DNA of 35,387 bases from Desulfobacterales bacterium (lineage in GTDB: Bacteria > Desulfobacterota > Desulfobacteria > Desulfobacterales > JAAELO01), in contig JAAELO010000765.1 in the NCBI GenBank assembly GCA_024226555.1, positions 1-35,387 of the forward strand, in the 5' to 3' direction. The notes beneath the pieces were generated by a model, which searched no databases, was not told where the DNA came from, and saw nothing but the letters and a program-made list of their open reading frames with translations. Every line of letters starts with the position of its first letter. Position 1 is the stretch's first letter. Below, piece by piece: positions 1 through 35,387 of the stretch. The position numbers and the translations under genes are program-made.

Positions 1-59
1 ACAGTTTTTTTTGGTAATAACGAAGTATTTCGCAAAAAGAGCAGTTATTAGAGATTCCC
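1..59. mobile_element. Right part of a MITE-like inverted-repeat element, cut by the window edge
   Basis: The first 59 bases match, with few changes, the right half of the complete element at 9618-9746: the same T-run, the GGTAATAACGAAGTATT-like core, and the end TTATTAGAGATTCCC. The left half lies outside the window. The end is 14 bp before the ribosome binding site of the small ORF at 83. Confidence 0.85.
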
Positions 60-82
60 ATATGAAATAAATAGAGGTAGTC

Positions 83-199
83 ATGAAAAATTTAATTATT
101 CGTTTTTTAAAATGGATAGAACAAGGCAATAAGAAAAGTCCAGTATGTAGTAATTGAGTTAAAGGTAAATCATCCACTGGAAGTGGAAAAAAACGTTAG
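83..199 (+). CDS. Candidate 38-residue selenoprotein with a Cys-x-x-Sec motif (UGA read-through)
   Basis: ATG at 83 follows an AGAGG ribosome binding site at about 73-77. Read with normal stops it is a 24-residue peptide ending in TGA at 155-157. If the TGA is read as selenocysteine, the frame continues 13 codons to TAG at 197-199. The product has an amphipathic N-terminal helix (Phe8, Leu9, Trp11, Ile12), a basic stretch, then Cys22-Ser-Asn-Sec25, the redox CxxU arrangement, and a basic Gly/Ser/Lys tail. A 6-bp stem with a GGA loop (173-187) starts 15 nt after the UGA and puts a G first in the loop 21 nt after it, as bacterial SECIS elements do. The hairpin lacks a T-run on either strand, so it is not a terminator. 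No selenocysteine machinery is visible in the window. I do not recognise the family. The alternative is a 24-residue peptide or a chance ORF. Confidence 0.45.
173..187 (+). promoter_or_regulatory. Candidate bacterial SECIS hairpin
   Basis: TCCACT-GGA-AGTGGA forms a perfect 6-bp stem with a 3-nt loop beginning with G, inside the read-through frame and at the usual distance downstream of the in-frame TGA (155-157). This is inferred from geometry only. Confidence 0.4.
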
Positions 200-220
200 T
201 AGAAATGAAAACTCAGTATA

Positions 221-235
221 GGGAACCTCTAATAA
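221..235. repeat. Solo left end of the MITE-like repeat
   Basis: GGGAACCTCTAATAA is the canonical terminal sequence of the repeat family, but the bases after it do not continue the consensus. It lies 24 bp beyond the stop of the MFS gene and faces a decayed right end at 1743-1774 on the other side of that gene. Confidence 0.7.
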
Positions 236-259
236 GACTTTTATACTTAAATATTTTTA

Positions 260-1663
260 TTAAACCCTTTTGATTTTACCACCTCTAAGCCATGAAATAA
301 TTATTCCCACCATAGCTATCAAACAACCTGTTAAAACAGAACACTTGAATGCAGTAAAAAAAGCATTTTCTAAAAAAGGGTTATAATTTTCAAGTACTTT
401 CCCGGAACTTTTAATAAAAAAGACATGGTTAAAAACTGTACCACCAATGGTTACGCCAAGAACCATTCCAAGATTTCTTGCAGTCGCAACAATTCCTCCT
501 GCAACACCCCTTTCATTTGGTGAAACTGATTCCATAACTGTTACAGTATTAGGTGAACTAAAAAGGGCTATTCCTATACCCAAAAGAGACATTCCAGCAG
601 CTATATTATAATAACTGGAACTAATATTTAATTGAGAAATCATATATAAAGACAAGGTTATGATAAACATACCTGTTGTGCATAATATTTTTGACCCTTT
701 TTTTCCTGCTAAGGTTCCTGAATATGGAGATATAACAAACATAAAAAAGAATGGTATAACCATGAAAAAACCAGCTTTGCCTGGAGAGAATTTCATTGGA
801 TACATCAAATAGAAAGGCATTAGAAATATTGTGATAAAAAGACATGTAAATAACAATACTGCAGATATTATGGGAAGAGTAAACAATTTGTTTCGAAACA
901 TCATTGTATTCAGGACCGGATACATATTTTGATTTTCAAATCTGATTAATGCATAAACTGATAAAACAAATATGATTAAAAGTACTCCTCCTTTTATATT
1001 AATTCCCTGTAATAAATTGCTTTTTGTTATAAAAAGAATGAAGAGAATGAGTGATAAAGTTATTAGTATTGATCCCTTAAAATCAAAAGGTTCCTCTTGC
1101 TTGCTATCAGTTTTACTCCCCTTAAGTTTAGTAAAAACTAAAAAAGCTGTTATTAAACCAATTGGTACATTAATATAAAAAATTAATCTCCATGAGAAGT
1201 AATGAAGAATAAGACCTCCTAAGGCAGGTCCGGCAGTTAAGCCAGACGCTACTGTAGCACCAATCATCCCAAGTGCTTTCCCTCTCTCTTCAACAGGAAA
1301 TGTATCGACAATTAATGCAGGAGTGCAGGCCATTACCATCGCAGCTCCAAGCCCTTGTATTGATCTTGAAAAAATAAGGAATTCAGCACTTGGTGATATG
1401 CCACAAAAAAATGAGCCTAACGAAAAAAATATAAGTCCTGTACTATATACTACTCTTCGCCCCTTAATATCACTTAATCTTCCAAAACTTAAAAGTAGAG
1501 AAGAAACAGTTAGGAGATATATTGCTATAACCCACTCAATTACAGGAACAGATGTTTTTAAATCTTTCATAATGGAAGGGAGAGCAATATTCACAATACT
1601 ACCATCTAAAGTGGACATAAAGACGCCAGTTGCAACAAGAATAAAAACAACCCATTTGTTCAA
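260..1663 (-). CDS. MFS multidrug exporter, DHA2 (EmrB/QacA-like, 14-helix) family
   Basis: This 467-residue protein has the hallmarks of the drug:H+ antiporter-2 family. Helix 1 carries the D1-type motif around residues 20-33 (LDGSIVNIALPSI), motif A GRLSDIKGRR lies near residues 61-70, and a motif C-like stretch rich in Gly and Pro (TVASGLTAGPALGG) near residues 137-150. The length and about 14 hydrophobic segments fit the family. It would export lipophilic drugs or toxic metabolites across the inner membrane using the proton gradient; the substrate cannot be told. The start is a TTG codon at 1661-1663, supported by an AGGGGG ribosome binding site six bases upstream. No periplasmic adaptor or outer-membrane partner gene is next to it. 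The gene lies between a left end (221) and a decayed right end (1743-1774) of the repeat family. Confidence 0.9.
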   Translation of the reverse strand: MNKWVVFILVATGVFMSTLDGSIVNIALPSIMKDLKTSVPVIEWVIAIYLLTVSSLLLSFGRLSDIKGRRVVYSTGLIFFSLGSFFCGISPSAEFLIFSRSIQGLGAAMVMACTPALIVDTFPVEERGKALGMIGATVASGLTAGPALGGLILHYFSWRLIFYINVPIGLITAFLVFTKLKGSKTDSKQEEPFDFKGSILITLSLILFILFITKSNLLQGINIKGGVLLIIFVLSVYALIRFENQNMYPVLNTMMFRNKLFTLPIISAVLLFTCLFITIFLMPFYLMYPMKFSPGKAGFFMVIPFFFMFVISPYSGTLAGKKGSKILCTTGMFIITLSLYMISQLNISSSYYNIAAGMSLLGIGIALFSSPNTVTVMESVSPNERGVAGGIVATARNLGMVLGVTIGGTVFNHVFFIKSSGKVLENYNPFLENAFFTAFKCSVLTGCLIAMVGIIISWLRGGKIKRV

Positions 1664-3096: not shown

Positions 3097-4344
3097 TTAA
3101 GTTGCATTTTTCAGTAGGCCTTTAATATAAGGTAATCTCCTCCTGTTTACAATTACTGCCATTGCAAAAAGTACAGTGAGAACCGTTTTTGATGAAAAGG
3201 AAAGTATAATAACAAAGAAAATTGCAAGAACACCAGTCAGGAGTTTCAAAATACTGTTTTCGATAAGCTTATAAGCTGCTAAAATTCCCAAGAGAGCATT
3301 AGATATAAAAAAACCATCTGCTAAAGCAATAAGGCTTTTAACATCGTAAAAACCGTAATATGAGGAGGTTAAAAATATTCCATGTATCAAACCAAGCATA
3401 AGAAGTGCTGCAACCGGAGATCCGTTTTTTAATCTTATTGATAGAAAATGTGGAAATATTTTATCTTTAGACAATGAATTTATTAGTCTTGCAACTCCAC
3501 CAACAAACAGAAGAAATGTGGTAATACATAGGGCAATTACAAGAAATGACATAAAATACTCACCCTTGCTACCAAACATTGTAAAAAGTAGTAGTGATAC
3601 AGATAATTTTTTATCTCCAACAATAGAAGGGTCTAACCATTGAATACTTGCTGAAACTGCAATGCTTACTGCAGCGATTACAATGGCACTAATAATAACA
3701 GCTTTTTTTATCGTTTTTTCTGGTTTTTCCACATCCCTGCTGTAATTTCCCATAATTTCCCAGCCAACAATTGTCCAGAACAGAAGGAGCAGGCTGTAAC
3801 CAAAGGCTGATGGGTCAAACTCAGATAGAACCATAACCTCTTTTCTGCTATAAACAAGAGTTGATATCCCTCCTGTAAAAAGAGTAACAGCAGATATTGA
3901 TGAAAGTATAAAAGCTGCTTTACCAATAAAAGAGATCTCTCTTGTTAGAATTAACAGATTAAATATCAAAATTATAAAACCTGCAAAAAAAGGATCGATA
4001 TTTGGGTTAATGTAACTTATATATCTCCCTGCAGTAATGAGTACAGCTACAGGTCCAAAGCACACAGCTCCAATAAGGTAAAAAGAGGTTAATCTTTTAA
4101 ACTCTTCGCCAAAAGTAAATTTTACTGCATCTGAGACTCCGGCATCCCCGGGAAATTTGATACTTAGAAAACCAAAAATATATGCAAAAAGAAAGCTGAC
4201 ACATATCATTAGAATCCATGCAAGGAAAGACCAACTGCCTGCAATTTCATATATAGCTGGAGGCAGTATTATTATTCCTGAACCAAGAACCGGTCCAACG
4301 ATTAAACCACTGAGAAGTAACGAATTAAGTTTTTTTGTTTTCAT
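3097..4344 (-). CDS. APC-superfamily amino-acid exporter, YjeH-like
   Basis: This 415-residue integral membrane protein has about 12 hydrophobic segments. The N-terminus carries the APC helix-1 signature, a Gly-rich GPVLGSGIIILPP around residues 17-29, followed by a GDAGVSDAVKFTFG stretch near residues 66-79. The length and the layout of the second half (GVARLINSLSKDKIFP, residues about 280-295) match the E. coli YjeH group, which exports methionine and branched-chain amino acids. Substrate specificity is inferred from this resemblance only. It starts at ATG 4344 after an AGGAAAGGA ribosome binding site. It diverges from a LysR-type regulator at 4540 with a palindromic operator candidate between them, the usual arrangement for a metabolite exporter controlled by its own sensor. 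Confidence 0.75.
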   Translation of the reverse strand: MKTKKLNSLLLSGLIVGPVLGSGIIILPPAIYEIAGSWSFLAWILMICVSFLFAYIFGFLSIKFPGDAGVSDAVKFTFGEEFKRLTSFYLIGAVCFGPVAVLITAGRYISYINPNIDPFFAGFIILIFNLLILTREISFIGKAAFILSSISAVTLFTGGISTLVYSRKEVMVLSEFDPSAFGYSLLLLFWTIVGWEIMGNYSRDVEKPEKTIKKAVIISAIVIAAVSIAVSASIQWLDPSIVGDKKLSVSLLLFTMFGSKGEYFMSFLVIALCITTFLLFVGGVARLINSLSKDKIFPHFLSIRLKNGSPVAALLMLGLIHGIFLTSSYYGFYDVKSLIALADGFFISNALLGILAAYKLIENSILKLLTGVLAIFFVIILSFSSKTVLTVLFAMAVIVNRRRLPYIKGLLKNAT

Positions 4345-5881: not shown

Positions 5882-5887
5882 ATTATT

Positions 5888-5995
5888 GGGAACCTCTAAT
5901 AATTAGAATTTTTGATGAAAATACAAGACATGATCAAAAATAACGAGCTGATTTTATGACAGTTTTTTTTAAAATTCTGTTGTTCTGTTTTTTTT
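5888..5995. mobile_element. MITE-like element with eroded right end
   Basis: A canonical left end (GGGAACCTCTAATAATTAG, then AATTTTTGATGAAAATACAAG) is followed by the conserved core TAACGAGCTGATTTTATGAC and a T-run. No clean right end is visible before the diguanylate cyclase gene, so the end coordinate is approximate. A matching inverted end lies beyond that gene at 7258-7270. Confidence 0.7.
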
Positions 5996-9504: not shown

Positions 9505-9602
9505 TATATATTGACCAAAAAGCAATAAGTAAGTTAAATCGAGTGTTTAACGTTTTTCCATCCCAACCTTTGAAGTGTTTTTTCATAAAGTGGTTAAATT
9601 TA

Positions 9603-9617
9603 GGGAATATCTAATAA
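9603..9617. repeat. Older repeat end interrupted by a newer element
   Basis: GGGAATATCTAATAA is a variant left end. The complete element at 9618-9746 is inserted in it. Removing the insert and one ATAA copy restores GGGAATATCTAATAATTTAG, which matches the small palindromic copy at 19758-19783. Confidence 0.65.
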
Positions 9618-9746
9618 GGGAACCTCTAATAATTAATATTTTGGATGAAATACAAGGCATTTCCAAAAGTAACGAGCCGATTTTATTACAGTTTTTTTTG
9701 GAAATAACAAAGTATTACGCCAAAAGAGGAGTTATTAGAGATTCCC
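9618..9746. mobile_element. Complete MITE-like element, 129 bp, with ATAA direct repeats
   Basis: The element runs from GGGAACCTCTAATAATTAA to AGTTATTAGAGATTCCC, with the core AAGTAACGAGCCGATTTTAT, a T-run and GGAAATAAC. It is flanked on both sides by ATAA (9614-9617 and 9747-9750), a probable target duplication. The copy at 26312-26441 is the same element in reverse orientation. It carries no ORF. Confidence 0.85.
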
Positions 9747-9860
9747 ATAATTTAGTAGCAGGACTATATGGGATTACAAAAAAGTGCTTTTTAGAGATTT
9801 TTTTGATAATATTTAATTTTAGTATTTTGCGACCGTTTATTAAAAATGTTAGGAGGCAGA

Positions 9861-13207: not shown

Positions 13208-13214
13208 ATTTATA

Positions 13215-13803
13215 GAGAACCTCTAATAATTAAAATTTTGTATAATAAAAACCTATTTTTTTATTAGTCTTATTGAAATAATTTAATAAAATCTACAAAA
13301 GAAAATAACCTCCGATTTAAAGGCAGTTCTTTTTCAAAAAACCTAAACAAACAAAATTAAACTTTTTTGTTTTATTAGCAGTTCAGTCAAAACTAAAGCC
13401 TTTTGTGTGCAATAACTCATTTCTATCTGTTTTTTCGCAGCTTTATTCATATTTATAATTTTATCAGATTAAACTTCAGGAAACTTCTAATAATTAGAAT
13501 TTTTATTGAAATGCAATGGTTGTTTATATTAAACTTCTCTTTATGAGAAAATATAAACTAGATCGGAATCTCTAATAATTGTTTTTTGGTTGAAACGTTA
13601 ATAAAAGCTTTAGTTTTATAAAATCTCTACAAGGCGAGAAAATATAATGAGCCGATTCGTTTATAAATTTTTTTATAAAGTTTACAGTTCTTTTTTTGGA
13701 AATACTCTGTTGTTTTGTTAATATTTCTTTAAAACAACTTAAGAATTTCAGTCAAAACAAAATTGGAACCTTTTGTTTTATATACCACTTATTAGAAATT
13801 CCC
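13215..13803. mobile_element. Cluster of nested or tandem MITE-like elements (about 590 bp)
   Basis: At least three left ends are visible: GAGAACCTCTAATAATTAA (13215), GGAAACTTCTAATAATTAG (13479) and GGAATCTCTAATAATTG (13565). The last continues through the long-form core (AAAAGCTTTAGTTTTATAAA, then ATGAGCCGATTCGTTTATAA, a T-run and AAAACAACTTA) to the right end ATTAGAAATTCCC at 13803, a 239-bp element. The core of the first copy is strongly decayed (AACCTCCGATTTAAAGG). The region has no plausible gene. Confidence 0.75.
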
Positions 13804-16157: not shown

Positions 16158-16193
16158 ACAAAAAACGCTATTCCCGATTAGGATATAGCGTTT
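16158..16193 (-). terminator. Rho-independent terminator of the first triple-repeat protein gene
   Basis: On the minus strand AAACGCTAT and ATAGCGTTT form a 9-bp stem and run into a T-stretch (the complement of A at 16158-16165). A second small hairpin, AATGAT / ATCATT, lies between the stop codon and this stem. Both hairpins recur, with small changes, at 18756-18821 beyond the paralogous gene. Confidence 0.8.
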
Positions 16194-16234
16194 AATGTAT
16201 CAAATGATAGGGGAATCATTCTGGTAGTCTTTTT

Positions 16235-16966
16235 TTACGACTGTGAGTTTTGGAAACCTCTATCGATTACCTGTCCATTTTTTATGATGAAGAAGTTGTA
16301 ACCAGTTTCAGCATCTTTTGAACCGAAAACCATTTTCTTCATTCCGTTTTTGTACTCTTTAACACTTACTGCTTTTCCATACTTTTGAGTTAAGAAAGCA
16401 ACGCTTTTTGGGTGGTTTTTGTACCATTTTGCCATGAATGGGCTTACCATAGGACCTTCAACTTCTATAGCATCTTCTATAAGAAGATTAGTCGTTCCCT
16501 GGTCAATAACGGTTCCATTTACTACTACAAATACGTTATATCCGACTACTGCATCTTTCGGTCCGAAAACGATTCTTTCCATACCGTTGTCATATGTACT
16601 CTTGTTAACCGGTTCACCGTATTTTGCTTTAAGGTCTGCTATAGTTGTGTTGTTTCCTTTGAAGTAAGAAGACATTAAACCGCTCATTTCGTGTTTGTTT
16701 GTTTTTACTTCTACCTTGTCAAGGTTTTGGATTGTACCACGATCCACAACTTCACCATCTTTAATAAGGAAGTAAAAATAACCAACTTCAACATCTTTTT
16801 CACCATAAATTCTTCTCTCTACTCCGCTTGCAAGTTCTTTAACGCTTTTAGGTGCTCCCCATTTAGTTTCAAGTGTTTTAAGGGATTCTGCTGATACGCT
16901 GTTTACGCCTAAGAAAATTACTGCTACTCCTGTCATTGCGATTACTGCATTTTTAAGAAAGTTCAT
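16235..16966 (-). CDS. Secreted triple-repeat protein (SmpA/BamE-like repeats), copy 1
   Basis: This protein of 243 residues has a clear signal peptide ending about ...SVSA at residue 26. The start ATG 16964-16966 is chosen for AGGAGA six bases upstream. The mature protein is three imperfect repeats of about 70 residues, each of the form L-x-x-K-Y/W-G-x-P ... NG-x-E/K-R-x-V/Y-G-x-KDA-x-x-GY-x-x-F-x-V/I-x-NG-x-V-ID-x-G. The Lys-Tyr-Gly-x-Pro helix end and NG hairpin resemble the BamE/SmpA fold; function is unknown. It probably works in the periplasm or is released. The gene has a sigma-54 promoter (17044-17059) with upstream palindromes, and is paralogous to 18997-19725. Confidence 0.75.
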   Translation of the reverse strand: MNFLKNAVIAMTGVAVIFLGVNSVSAESLKTLETKWGAPKSVKELASGVERRIYGEKDVEVGYFYFLIKDGEVVDRGTIQNLDKVEVKTNKHEMSGLMSSYFKGNNTTIADLKAKYGEPVNKSTYDNGMERIVFGPKDAVVGYNVFVVVNGTVIDQGTTNLLIEDAIEVEGPMVSPFMAKWYKNHPKSVAFLTQKYGKAVSVKEYKNGMKKMVFGSKDAETGYNFFIIKNGQVIDRGFQNSQS

Positions 16967-17189: not shown

Positions 17190-17385
17190 AGACTAAACAG
17201 TAAAGCATCTGATATTTAACATAAAACAAGGCTTCAATTTTGAATAGCTGACCAAATCATTGGATTTGATAAATTTTTATTATTTGATAGAAGTATTTAA
17301 AACCTGATATGAAAGAATACATGAAAACCAAAAATTATGTGAAATCAACTTTGTTTAAATGATTCAATGGATTATTATCAATATA

Positions 17386-17520
17386 GGGAACCTCTAATAA
17401 GAAAAATTATTGAATTACCAGATTTAAAGTATGGCCTTTTATTATTAATTTGTATAAAATCATCAATAAGTTTTACAGTTTTTTGGAACTTATCTTATAG
17501 ATTTGGGCGCTTAGGGAATA
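17386..17520. repeat. Decayed MITE-like element
   Basis: A perfect left end GGGAACCTCTAATAAG is followed by partial core matches (ACAGTTTTTTGGAAC) and a weak GGGAATATC sequence at about 17515. The right end is approximate. Confidence 0.55.
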
Positions 17521-18552: not shown

Positions 18553-18996
18553 GAAATCCTCCTTATTTTAATTATGAAAAACCTTCATTCGTAGCTGAAA
18601 AAAATCAGGACCGTGAACTCAAAAATAAAATGTACGAATAAATACATTTTAAAATAGTAGGGCCTGCTTTGTCAAAATAATAATATTCAATTATTATATA
18701 GAGTTGGACAGTTTTATTTAAAAAAAATTAGTGCTGCAGATCTTTTTGTCTAAAACAAAAAAACGCTATATCAGAATTAACGGACATAACGTTTTAATGT
18801 ATCAAATGATAGGGGAATCATTTTTAAGTTTTCATATTTAAAAAGGGAATCTCTTATTACCAATCACCTCAAATGGGTGAAAACATGACACCTTCTGGGA
18901 AGGTGCCACATTTATAAGACTAAAGAGTCTTCGCAATTATTAAGATCTTACTTTTTTATTTTATGACGCTATAACCCAGAAGTTGTCACATTTATT
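18553..18996. other. Intergenic region with a displaced duplicate 3' region
   Basis: 18756-18821 repeats the terminator and second hairpin found directly after copy 1 of the triple-repeat gene (16158-16221), including the 27-base stretch from AATGTATCAAATGATAGGGG to AATCATT. Here it lies about 175 bp beyond the stop codon of copy 2. The extra 175 bp contains a repeat-like end GGGAATCTCTTATTA (18845-18859) and a hairpin CACCTT / AAGGTG (near 18890-18905), and looks like an insertion. Confidence 0.6.
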
Positions 18997-19725
18997 TTAG
19001 GACTGAGAATCAGTGAAACCTCTATCGATTACCTGTCCATTTTTAATTATGAAGAAGTTGTAACCAGTTTCTGCATCTTTAGAACCGAAAACCATTTTTT
19101 TCATTCCGTTTTTGTACTCTTTAACACTTACAGGTTTTCCCCATTTTCTGTTTAGAAACGCAACACTTTTTGGGTGGTTCTTGTACCATTTTGCCATAAA
19201 TGGACTTATTGCTGGTCCCTCTGGTTCGATTGCATCTTTAATAAGAATGTTAGTAGTTCCCTGATCAACAACTCTTCCGTTCATTACAACAAAAACGTTG
19301 TATCCTGTTATTGCATCAGCTGGTCCGAAAACGATTCTTTCCATACCGTTATCATATGTGCTCTTATTAACAGGTTCTCCGTATTTTGCTTTAATATCTG
19401 CCACTTTTATATTGTTTTTTTTGTAGTAAGAAGACATTAAACCACTCATTTTATGAGTGTTTGTTTTTAATTCTATCTTGTCAAGATTTTCAATTGTACC
19501 ACGATCTACTACTTCACCATCTTTAATAAGGAAGTAGAAGTATCCTACTACTACATCTTTCTCACCGTAAATTCTTCTCTCTACGCCATTTGCAAGTTCT
19601 TTAACGCTTTTAGGTGTTCCCCATTTAGCCTCAAGTGTTTTAAGGGATTCTGCTGATGCGCTATTTACACCTAAAAAAATTACAGCTACTGTCATTGCTA
19701 CTATTGCTTTTTTGAGAAAATTCAT
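18997..19725 (-). CDS. Secreted triple-repeat protein (SmpA/BamE-like repeats), copy 2
   Basis: This protein of 242 residues is a close paralogue of 16235-16966. The signal peptide (ending ...SASA) and the three repeats of about 70 residues are shared nearly residue for residue; differences cluster in linkers between repeats. The start is ATG 19725 with an AGGAGA-like ribosome binding site. A sigma-54 promoter at 20022-20037 and palindromes at 20112-20145 match those of copy 1, so both genes answer to one activator. The leader here is about 280 nt, because a 183-bp repeat element and a small palindrome are inserted between promoter and gene. Function unknown. Confidence 0.75.
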   Translation of the reverse strand: MNFLKKAIVAMTVAVIFLGVNSASAESLKTLEAKWGTPKSVKELANGVERRIYGEKDVVVGYFYFLIKDGEVVDRGTIENLDKIELKTNTHKMSGLMSSYYKKNNIKVADIKAKYGEPVNKSTYDNGMERIVFGPADAITGYNVFVVMNGRVVDQGTTNILIKDAIEPEGPAISPFMAKWYKNHPKSVAFLNRKWGKPVSVKEYKNGMKKMVFGSKDAETGYNFFIIKNGQVIDRGFTDSQS

Positions 19726-19817: not shown

Positions 19818-20000
19818 GGTAACCTCTAATAATTGATCTTTGACTGAAATACTCGTTCTCATTTATCAGCTTGCACGTGCTTCGCATTACCACTGTATTG
19901 TTCTAAAAAAAGAAGCTTAATTTTTCAGCCTTGTAGAGATTTTATAAAACTAAAGCTTTTATAAACGTTTCAGTCAAATTTCTAATCATTAGAAGTTACC
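19818..20000. mobile_element. MITE-like element, 183 bp, inserted in a transcript leader
   Basis: The ends GGTAACCTCTAATAATTGAT and ATCATTAGAAGTTACC are inverted, with matching GACTGAAA / TTTCAGTC inside them. The core includes GATTTTATAAAACTAAAGCT, shared with other copies. It sits between the sigma-54 promoter at 20022-20037 and the gene it serves. Confidence 0.8.
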
Positions 20001-25095: not shown

Positions 25096-25113
25096 GTCAT
25101 TAATCCTTTTTTA

Positions 25114-25300
25114 GGGAAATTTCTAATAACTGTCTATAAAACAAAAGGCTCTGGTTTTGTTGCTTTTACCTAACTACTGCGTTCTTCAAAAAAATAACTG
25201 TTTTAAAATCAGCTCGTTGTTTTTTTCAGGCAAAGATTTTATAAAAACTAAAGTTTTATAATCTGTATTTAAATCAAAATTCTAATTATTAGAGGTCTCC
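25114..25300. mobile_element. MITE-like element, 187 bp, in the leader of the RND operon
   Basis: The ends are GGGAAATTTCTAATAACTG and CTAATTATTAGAGGTCTCC, with the core GATTTTATAAAAACTAAAG and ATCAGCTCGTTG (reverse of the AACGAGCCGAT module). It separates the RND gene (start 25095) from the operator candidates at 25325 and 25468. Confidence 0.8.
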
Positions 25301-25324
25301 TTTGTTTGAACGTTAGTCTATATA

Positions 25325-26199: not shown

Positions 26200-26311
26200 C
26201 ATAATAAATCCGATTTTAATTTTTGTCAATATCATAAATTAATAAAATAATAAATGGGAGGATATTTTTTCTTTGCAAGTGACGATCTTTAATGGTGTAA
26301 TCTTGATTACA

Positions 26312-26441
26312 GGGAATCTCTAATAACTGCCTTTTGGTCGAACTACAGTGTCATTCAAAAAAATAAAACTGTGTAAAATCGCCTCGTTATTTTTTTCTCA
26401 TCCTTGTATTTCAAACAAAATTCTAATTATTAGAGGTTCCC
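26312..26441. mobile_element. Complete MITE-like element, 130 bp, reverse orientation
   Basis: GGGAATCTCTAATAACTGCC to CTAATTATTAGAGGTTCCC. Its reverse complement aligns over its whole length with the element at 9618-9746, including the module TAACGAGGCGATTTTA. No exact flanking repeat is visible. From 26442 to 26663 I see nothing recognisable. Confidence 0.85.
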
Positions 26442-26663
26442 GTAAGTAAATAAAGTTCATACTATCTTAATTAACTATCTGTAGCAAATCATTTCATTTC
26501 TACTATCAGATTCTCTATATAAGGGTTGCAGATAATTTCAGATGTCAACACATCGACAACGATGTTTTTTTAAAAAAAGAAGTGAATAAAACCAATAATT
26601 AAAGAGAGGTATGAATACTTGAGGTTATTTATCTTTCGTCATATTTTTTATACAGCATAGGGT

Positions 26664-27488: not shown

Positions 27489-28023
27489 TAATACCTCCTC
27501 CTTTTAAATAAGTTTTCTCTTTACCTTTTATTAAAGGGAACCTCTAATTATTCTGCCATTCGCTACTAATACTACTATAAAAAAGGTCGTTGCTATAGGC
27601 AAGACTAAAAAGTATTCGCCCTTTTTTCCCAAAACTTTTCATTTAAGGGAACCTCAGGTCATTTCTACCGTTGTGCGGTTCTTAAAAAAAAGACAAGAGG
27701 TCGCGTCTTCATTAGCCCTTTGCAAAGAGCAAATGATAATTTGACACCTCTCAATATTCTTTCGGGTCAACACCTTTTTTAGTATTTGTTTCCTCCATAT
27801 TGGAAAAAGAGGCAATTCCTTTTTTTCCTTCTTAATATTTCAGTTAGTTGAAAATAATTGATTTAACCTGAAATACGATATAAATAATATTTAGGGAACC
27901 TCTAATAACTGATCTTTTTGCGAAATATTGTTTTTTTCTCAGCCTTGTATTTCTTCAAAAATTCTAATTATTAGAGATTCCCTTTAATTAAATTCTTCAA
28001 TTATAACTATATTGCAGAATTTG
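27489..28023. other. Repeat-rich intergenic region without a gene
   Basis: It holds solo left ends GGGAACCTCTAATTATT (27536) and GGGAACCTC (27647) and the short complete element at 27894-27982. From 27657 to 27890 it contains small inverted repeats (for example around 27700-27720) but no ORF or feature I can name. Confidence 0.5.
27894..27982. mobile_element. Short complete MITE-like element, 89 bp, with TTTA direct repeats
   Basis: GGGAACCTCTAATAACTGAT to CTAATTATTAGAGATTCCC, with a much reduced core (TTGCGAAATATTG, a T-run, then CAGCCTTGTATTTC). It is flanked by TTTA on both sides (27890-27893 and 27983-27986), a probable 4-bp target duplication. Confidence 0.85.
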
Positions 28024-35106: not shown

Positions 35107-35196
35107 AGGTGACGACTAAAGTATTATTACGATTTTGTGTCCTACCATTTCAAAGGGCCTATCTGTATTTGGCCCAAACAAATTTCATTTTCTTAA

Positions 35197-35387
35197 GGGA
35201 ACTCTAATAATTAGAATTTTGATTGAAATGCAACGTTTATAAAAGCTTTCAGTTTTATAAAATCTCTGCCTGAGAAAAAAACAATGGGTTGATCCGTTTA
35301 TAAAACGCTTTAATTTATAAACATTACTACAGTTGTTTTTTTTGAAATACTCCGTTGTTTTGTTTTTATTTCATTTAAAACAACTTA
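35197..35387. mobile_element. Long-form MITE-like element, cut by the window edge
   Basis: It begins GGGAACTCTAATAATTAG (one base missing from the end), continues AATTTTGATTGAAATGCAAC and then the long-form core: GTTTATAAAAGCTTTCAGTT, TGCCTGAGAAAAAAACAATG, a T-run and CATTTAAAACAACTTA. It matches the last element of the cluster at 13565-13803 up to the window edge. Confidence 0.8.

Follow-up and report, generated by a model that had tools for sequence, protein, structure and literature searches.

A candidate 38-residue CxxU selenoprotein gene in Desulfobacterales and its family of relatives

Close to the left end of the window, as we call the whole 35,387-nt stretch of Desulfobacterales DNA analyzed here, an open reading frame of 24 codons ends in TGA and continues in the same frame to a TAG. 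This raises the question of whether the TGA is an ordinary stop or a codon for selenocysteine (Sec). The original prediction, made from the letters of the window, was that of a tiny selenoprotein having a ribosome-binding site, a Cys22-x-x-Sec25 motif and, 21 nt beyond the UGA, a 6-bp stem whose loop opens with a G. We found all of these features in the sequence (Table 1). The frame runs from ATG 83-85 through 23 further codons to TGA 155-157, and then through 13 sense codons to TAG 197-199. Read through the TGA, it gives the 38-residue microprotein MKNLIIRFLKWIEQGNKKSPVCSNUVKGKSSTGSGKKR. The hairpin consists of TCCACT (173-178), the loop GGA (179-181) with its G in the first position, and AGTGGA (182-187), and no T-run follows it on the 3' side. 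On the evidence of the sequence and its relatives, we consider it very likely that the UGA is decoded as Sec and, with slightly less assurance, likely that the frame is a genuine selenoprotein gene of a family found in no catalogue that was searched.

Table 1. Positions of the candidate gene, its parts and the surrounding elements in the window
Feature	Position	Strand	Basis
Right end of an approximately 129-bp MITE-like repeat, terminal repeats GGGAACCTCTAATAA ... TTATTAGAGATTCCC	1..59	+	Near-identical copies elsewhere in the genome
Ribosome-binding-site-like AGAGGT	73..78	+	Read from the sequence
Candidate tiny selenoprotein gene, 38 residues, stop TAG	83..199	+	Sequence and family of relatives
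Stretch encoding residues 2-18, the predicted N-terminal helix	86..136	+	AlphaFold2 model, mean pLDDT 66.5
CxxU motif, Cys22-Ser-Asn-Sec25 (Cys codon 146-148, TGA 155-157)	146..157	+	Cys and TGA in 122 of 122 member loci
bSECIS-like hairpin, 6-bp stem, loop GGA, loop start 21 nt past the UGA	173..187	+	Sequence and family covariation
Terminal part of another MITE-like repeat, GGGAACCTCTAATAAGA, bordering the gene on its 3' side	220..237	+	Repeat family D4
DHA2-type MFS efflux transporter gene, convergent neighbor outside the system	260..1663	-	TIGR00711, 226.3 bits
Other MITE-like repeats and related pieces	5883-5970, 9595-9749, 13210-13643, 17381-17419, 19818-19978, 25105-25320, 26304-26461, 27889-28002, 35191-35280

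Selenocysteine machinery and the setting of the window gene

The host genome (7.69 Mb in 904 contigs, the window being contig C764) contains SelB (335 bits, above the cut-off), tRNA-Sec, the product of selC (73.3 bits, anticodon TCA), and SelD. Its selD gene carries an in-frame TGA of its own, followed by the hairpin CCAGG-GGT-CCTGG, the loop of which begins 21 nt after the UGA, the same geometry as that of the window hairpin. We also surveyed the 63 genomes that carry the 64 loci of our first set of relatives (see below). A tRNA-Sec was found in 45 of these by a strict scan tallied by hand, and SelB scored over the cut-off in 12 of the remaining 18, giving 57 genomes with at least one of the two. 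In the other six, the strict scan gave no tRNA-Sec and SelB did not exceed the cut-off; their assemblies are fragmented (320 to 1270 contigs), and two of them are listed as at least 92% complete. Since tRNA-Sec is equally common in the order as a whole (297 of 389 genomes), its co-occurrence with the family shows no enrichment and adds no support.

The window gene is the sole match to the family in its own genome. It is flanked by the ends of short mobile repeats at 59 and 220, and lacks the purM-tsaD context seen in many relatives. The contig itself starts inside the upstream repeat, whose end is a new upstream border and lies outside the gene proper. The terminal 78 nt of another contig (C782) are shared with the start of the window, and an HpaB-family gene lies upstream on that contig. 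The convergent transporter gene scored slightly under the TIGR00711 cut-off of 230.2 bits. A phage collection gave no match, nor did a plasmid collection searched at the DNA level.

A family of relatives that keeps the UGA codon

When the read-through protein was used as the query, 73 of the 389 genomes of the order contained a match. This first order-wide search returned 74 places, of which 73 were read (that in G377 was left out), yielding 66 members with TGA, one locus with TAA and six that were rejected as members (L096, L099, L101, L102, L104 and L195). A profile of 35 sequences matched 178 of the 326 genomes in a sample of the class, all marked as belonging to the same order; this is a count of profile matches, of which a subset was read (the earlier sets and 40 further loci), most others being unread. 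The phylum-wide search gave matches, mostly weak, in 92 of 395 genomes. Thirteen of the weaker ones were read, three being accepted (L144, L148 and L149) and ten rejected (L141-L143, L145-L147 and L150-L153). A pattern search returned 34 matches, comprising 24 members and 10 without a plausible frame. Desulfonema magnum, Desulfosarcina widdelii and D. cetonica are named carriers of the family.

Reading of the loci gave 122 members, 119 of them distinct. A TGA stands three codons after a Cys in all 122, a conservation that is partly due to selection, as the loci were located by way of a TGA with a Cys three codons before it; unselected readings were also made. The next in-frame stop of the 119 distinct loci is mixed, being TAA in 52, TGA in 46 and TAG in 20, and lying off the contig in one. 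The TGA of the U column is kept in the homologues, with conservation on both sides that is strong before it and weaker in the first five codons after it. With selB and selC present and conservation passing beyond the TGA, the original prediction held on the two points on which it had made itself depend. The homologues with TGT or TGC in the TGA column for which it proposed a search did not turn up in convincing form among the loci read, although some weak, chance-like matches show CxxC. The nearest thing to a Cys homologue was L142 (G480), reading ...WIENPGQEKPPCGSCGPGQ, which has neither purM nor tsaD in its locus and was judged to be a chance resemblance.

One locus (L081 in G130), syntenic with the family between purM and the next gene of the operon, has TAA in place of TGA in the U column (positions 4061-4063) and keeps the hairpin. 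This may be a natural loss, an assembly error or a transition state. Because the tRNA-Sec of that genome has the anticodon TCA, decoding of UAA as Sec was rejected in favor of the likelier explanations, a recent loss or an error of assembly. As separate observations, two genomes carry two different paralogues each (L093 and L239 in G016; L133 and L234 in G317), and tiny CxxU selenoprotein genes with hairpins occur in family f121, outside the order (L269, L272 and L148, in G760, G489 and G652).

The members share a layout in which an N-terminal helix containing an invariant Trp is followed by a near-invariant Gly, CxxU and a short variable tail of Lys, Arg and Gly; Trp, Cys and U are invariant in the 35 aligned members. 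The 64 members of the first set are 29-63 residues long by the chosen starts, and all 64 have a net charge of +3 to +16. In 119 pairs at 70-95% identity, substitutions at the three codon positions were 169:114:467 in the 11 codons before U and 78:144:210 in codons +1 to +5 after it, the latter retaining a third-position excess, as compared with 239:200:243, without position bias, in codons +6 to +12. This pattern indicates protein-level constraint on the helix and CxxU, but none on the far tail. Beyond the first five codons after U, it is the RNA hairpin that is kept rather than the residues. The helix was amphipathic beyond shuffles in three of the four sequences tested, the exception being that of the purM-less subgroup. 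The AlphaFold2 model of the window protein has predicted helices at residues 2-18 and 23-26 and is flexible elsewhere. The protein has no match in Pfam or NCBIfam, and the low-confidence model, a helix plus tail, is not that of a thioredoxin-like fold. Four Pfam models that each hit one member (best E 0.00079, DUF6587), and PDB profile matches of four sequences (best E 0.0021, PRDM9 constructs), were judged to be chance.

The window hairpin taken alone is only mildly unusual. A hairpin as good by the bSECIS measure follows 26 of the 1464 TGA trinucleotides on both strands of the window, 7 of 2000 shuffles of the gene's own downstream sequence score as well, and the 61-nt fold is no better than shuffles (z -0.58). 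The joint presence of the features had been called unlikely by chance; this is borne out for the hairpin, not by itself, but because the frame, the TGA and CxxU recur in more than 100 relatives, most of which have a similar hairpin. Its 3-nt loop, 6 bp, GGA and distance of 21 nt lie within the published bSECIS ranges, namely an apical loop of 3-9 nt, a stem of 4-16 bp, a G in the first two loop positions and 16-37 nt from the UGA (PMC13188914, Fig. 2 legend). Its energy of -6.6 kcal/mol falls just short of the bSECIS limit of -7.5 kcal/mol or lower, which 105 of the 119 family sequences reach over the 50 nt from the UGA. We regard this limit as serving to filter searches and not as strictly required, because, according to the same review (PMC13188914), the elements of some selenoprotein genes do not conform to the model.

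Across the family, a hairpin score of at least 10 was obtained by 92 of 116 sequences, as compared with a mean of 11 and a maximum of 20 sequences in 200 dinucleotide shuffles; the other 24 scored under 10. In 58 of these 92 sequences, nt 21 or 22 after the UGA is the first of the loop. In 56 of the 64 first-set sequences, after alignment, 81.8% of cells paired, as compared with 62.0% when shuffled and 38.5-47.3% when slid, and covariation was 0.537 versus 0.186. This count leaves out eight sequences with the hairpin out of register or not found (L055, L074, L076, L088, L090, L105, L109 and L129), which favors structure, and hence a recount was made on all 116 distinct sequences without selection. 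Pairing was then 71.9%, as compared with 53.7% when shuffled (maximum 57.9) and 37.1-46.4% when slid, and covariation was 0.475 versus 0.190. The window hairpin itself is off the family's commonest register, with one of five consensus pairs forming at those columns. In 45 of 117 members, the protein ends within five codons past U, which places the hairpin level with the stop codon or past it, where it cannot be a by-product of coding; many of these still keep it.

Gene neighborhood and relation to known families

Of the 119 distinct loci, 115 have at least 700 nt of sequence upstream and 114 at least 700 nt downstream. On the same strand, purM lies within 600 nt upstream in 65 and tsaD within 2.6 kb downstream in 57; in 60 loci, the gene stands between purM on the upstream side and either tsaD or a glycosyltransferase-like fusion gene on the downstream side. 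For 37 loci of the first set, the median distance from the UGA to the start of tsaD is 150 nt. These commonest neighbors are housekeeping genes and tell little of function. A second lineage is followed by the gene of an unnamed protein of about 142 residues without a Pfam match (24 loci) and by a multihaem cytochrome (26 loci). Six loci, all of family f59 (L144, L223, L224 and L234-L236), have flavoproteins on both sides, a context seen in that family only. These were identified by clustering with proteins resembling CoA-disulfide reductase, and the three that were scanned all fell below the TIGR03385 cut-off. Such flavoproteins are possible reductase partners, not relatives, of the microprotein. 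An MntP-like gene lies further downstream in 11 loci of the first set, and no other conserved neighbor of the metal transporter or metal regulator kind was seen.

The family resembles bSECIS-dependent selenoproteins in having a UGA in frame, a hairpin after it whose loop begins with G, a CxxU motif and a genome with SelB and tRNA-Sec. It differs in that neither a thioredoxin-like fold nor a Cys homologue was found, whereas most characterized selenoproteins have that fold and nearly all have Cys homologues, as stated in a 2026 review (PMC13188914). Table 1 of that review lists 119 bacterial families and subfamilies, among them KCU-star (DUF466), UXX-star and SaoC, and none could be matched to ours by name, motif or NCBIfam model. 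Among the genomes scanned in the deep-Sep study (PMC12013277) were D. widdelii PP31 and D. ovata oXyS1; the new selenoproteins tabulated there, all of which had Cys homologues, include no such family by name. We found that D. widdelii carries the family, and D. ovata probably does too. Nor was a description seen in passages of PMC9312934 and PMC8318568. In the literature and catalogues searched, no description of the family was found.

Small selenoproteins with Sec close to the C-terminus are known in KCU-star (DUF466), UXX-star and SaoC, and the present family is like them in its size and in having Sec near the end. NCBIfam models of such short selenoproteins gave no match at E 0.05 in the 35 members scanned. 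The one model with some resemblance was NF040898 (CC_mini_metal, LDCC motif putative metal-binding protein), which matched 3 of the 35 members weakly (best E 0.0032) and the others not at all; the window protein gave no match at E 1. In the one member inspected, the match (16.2 bits, against a curated cut-off of 30 bits) lies in the helix, and hhalign of the two profiles gave a probability of 82.5% over 18 columns. Both have a short basic helix (consensus KGWWxRFLxRLAxAN) ending in a Cys motif. NF040898 proteins, however, bear a CC or CH tail behind a YHS-like domain, whereas our family is a CxxU protein with TGA and has no such C-terminal CC or CH. A search of the 395 phylum genomes with NF040898 found 13 loci. 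Eleven of these are tails that have CC or CH at or close to the end and no TGA there, judged by eye to lie behind a YHS-like domain; of three that were scanned, two were over the YHS cut-off and one was below it. The other two are the CxxU genes L269 and L272 from outside the order. L269 reached 32.2 bits with NF040898, being the only selenoprotein found with this model to pass the cut-off. From these sequence comparisons, a shared helix module, and not family membership, is probable.

Competing readings and a proposed role

One alternative is that translation simply stops at the UGA to yield a peptide of 24 residues, the hairpin after it being a terminator or chance. The 24-codon frame with its ribosome-binding site is complete by itself, the window hairpin alone is mildly unusual, and codons +6 to +12 show no position bias. 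Against this, the UGA column holds TGA in every member and TAA in one locus more, yet the second stop is mixed; the hairpin covaries at a preferred distance across the family, the T-run of a terminator is missing, codons +1 to +5 retain their third-position excess, and the genome has the Sec genes. We consider an ordinary stop highly improbable. For the 24-residue frame, a type I toxin peptide or an AgrD-like cyclic lactone had also been considered, and both were set aside when relatives with the read-through frame came to light. Scarcely more probable is a selenium-sensing leader, in which the UGA and SECIS would mainly regulate a downstream tsaD by Sec supply and the peptide would be secondary. 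The frequency and closeness of tsaD downstream speak for it, but elsewhere other genes follow (those of the 142-residue protein, the cytochrome and the flavoproteins), the gene next to that of the window is convergent, and the peptide itself is under purifying selection. That the window copy is a decaying stray of a real family is unlikely, if less so: it sits between two MITE ends away from purM and tsaD and its hairpin is weaker, but its frame, ribosome-binding site, Trp and Gly, CxxU and stop are intact, as is a correctly spaced 6-bp hairpin, and it is the only match in its genome.

A more serious alternative concerns function. The thiolate/selenolate pair might bind a soft metal, sulfide or selenide without redox cycling, like the C-terminal tails of YHS proteins. 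The NF040898 resemblances described above, including the score of L269 and the YHS domain over the cut-off in two of three carriers scanned, are in its favor. The helix, however, is the only part that can be aligned, the metal role of NF040898 is itself putative, and the distant MntP-like gene is the one metal-related neighbor. We hold metal, sulfide or selenide handling to be less likely than not, though a fair second choice; the most likely function is that of a basic helix-plus-CxxU redox microprotein, a redox role that we judge to be about evenly balanced between right and wrong.

For a selenoprotein with a redox role, we propose the following scheme. SelB and tRNA-Sec would decode UGA 155-157 as Sec, directed by the hairpin 21 nt downstream, and translation would end at UAG 197-199 to give a strongly basic microprotein of 38 residues. 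The Cys/Sec pair may switch between a selenenylsulfide and a reduced form, and the N-terminal helix may dock on a partner protein. The peptide would then be a small thiol/selenol redox carrier, either diffusible or docked to a protein, and its selenenylsulfide would probably be reduced by a flavin disulfide reductase. A broader hypothesis, which we offer tentatively and hold to be rather less probable than the redox role itself, is that this order-wide, seemingly Sec-only family of about 45 residues provides sulfate reducers of the Desulfobacterales with a mobile carrier of selenol/thiol type that serves flavin disulfide reductases, that it was missed as published methods lean on Cys homologues, and that it evolved from, or shares its helix module with, the YHS C-terminal tail.

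If correctly read, the gene represents a selenoprotein family that the catalogues searched do not contain and that may be one of the smallest known; its profile matches more than half of the genomes sampled from a class to which major sulfate reducers belong. That no Cys counterpart was seen suggests a bias of the catalogues toward families with Cys twins. As a natural CxxU peptide of very small size, it could also be used to ask what selenium alone contributes.

Some further observations were made on the same genomes. In four of them (G188, G047, G096 and G242), a divergent tRNA-Sec of about 51 bits with the anticodon TCA adjoins a divergent SelB gene (L190, L191, L192 and L189, respectively); this SelB is a second one in G188, G047 and G096 and the sole one found in G242. 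The MITE-like repeats of about 129 bp, together with related pieces, are numerous in the host genome and have apparent short target duplications. The window also contains a duplicated block, within 16191-16529 and 18793-19291, in which 30 bases are identical (16191-16220 and 18793-18822) and 300-nt copies are 82% alike (16230-16529 and 18992-19291).
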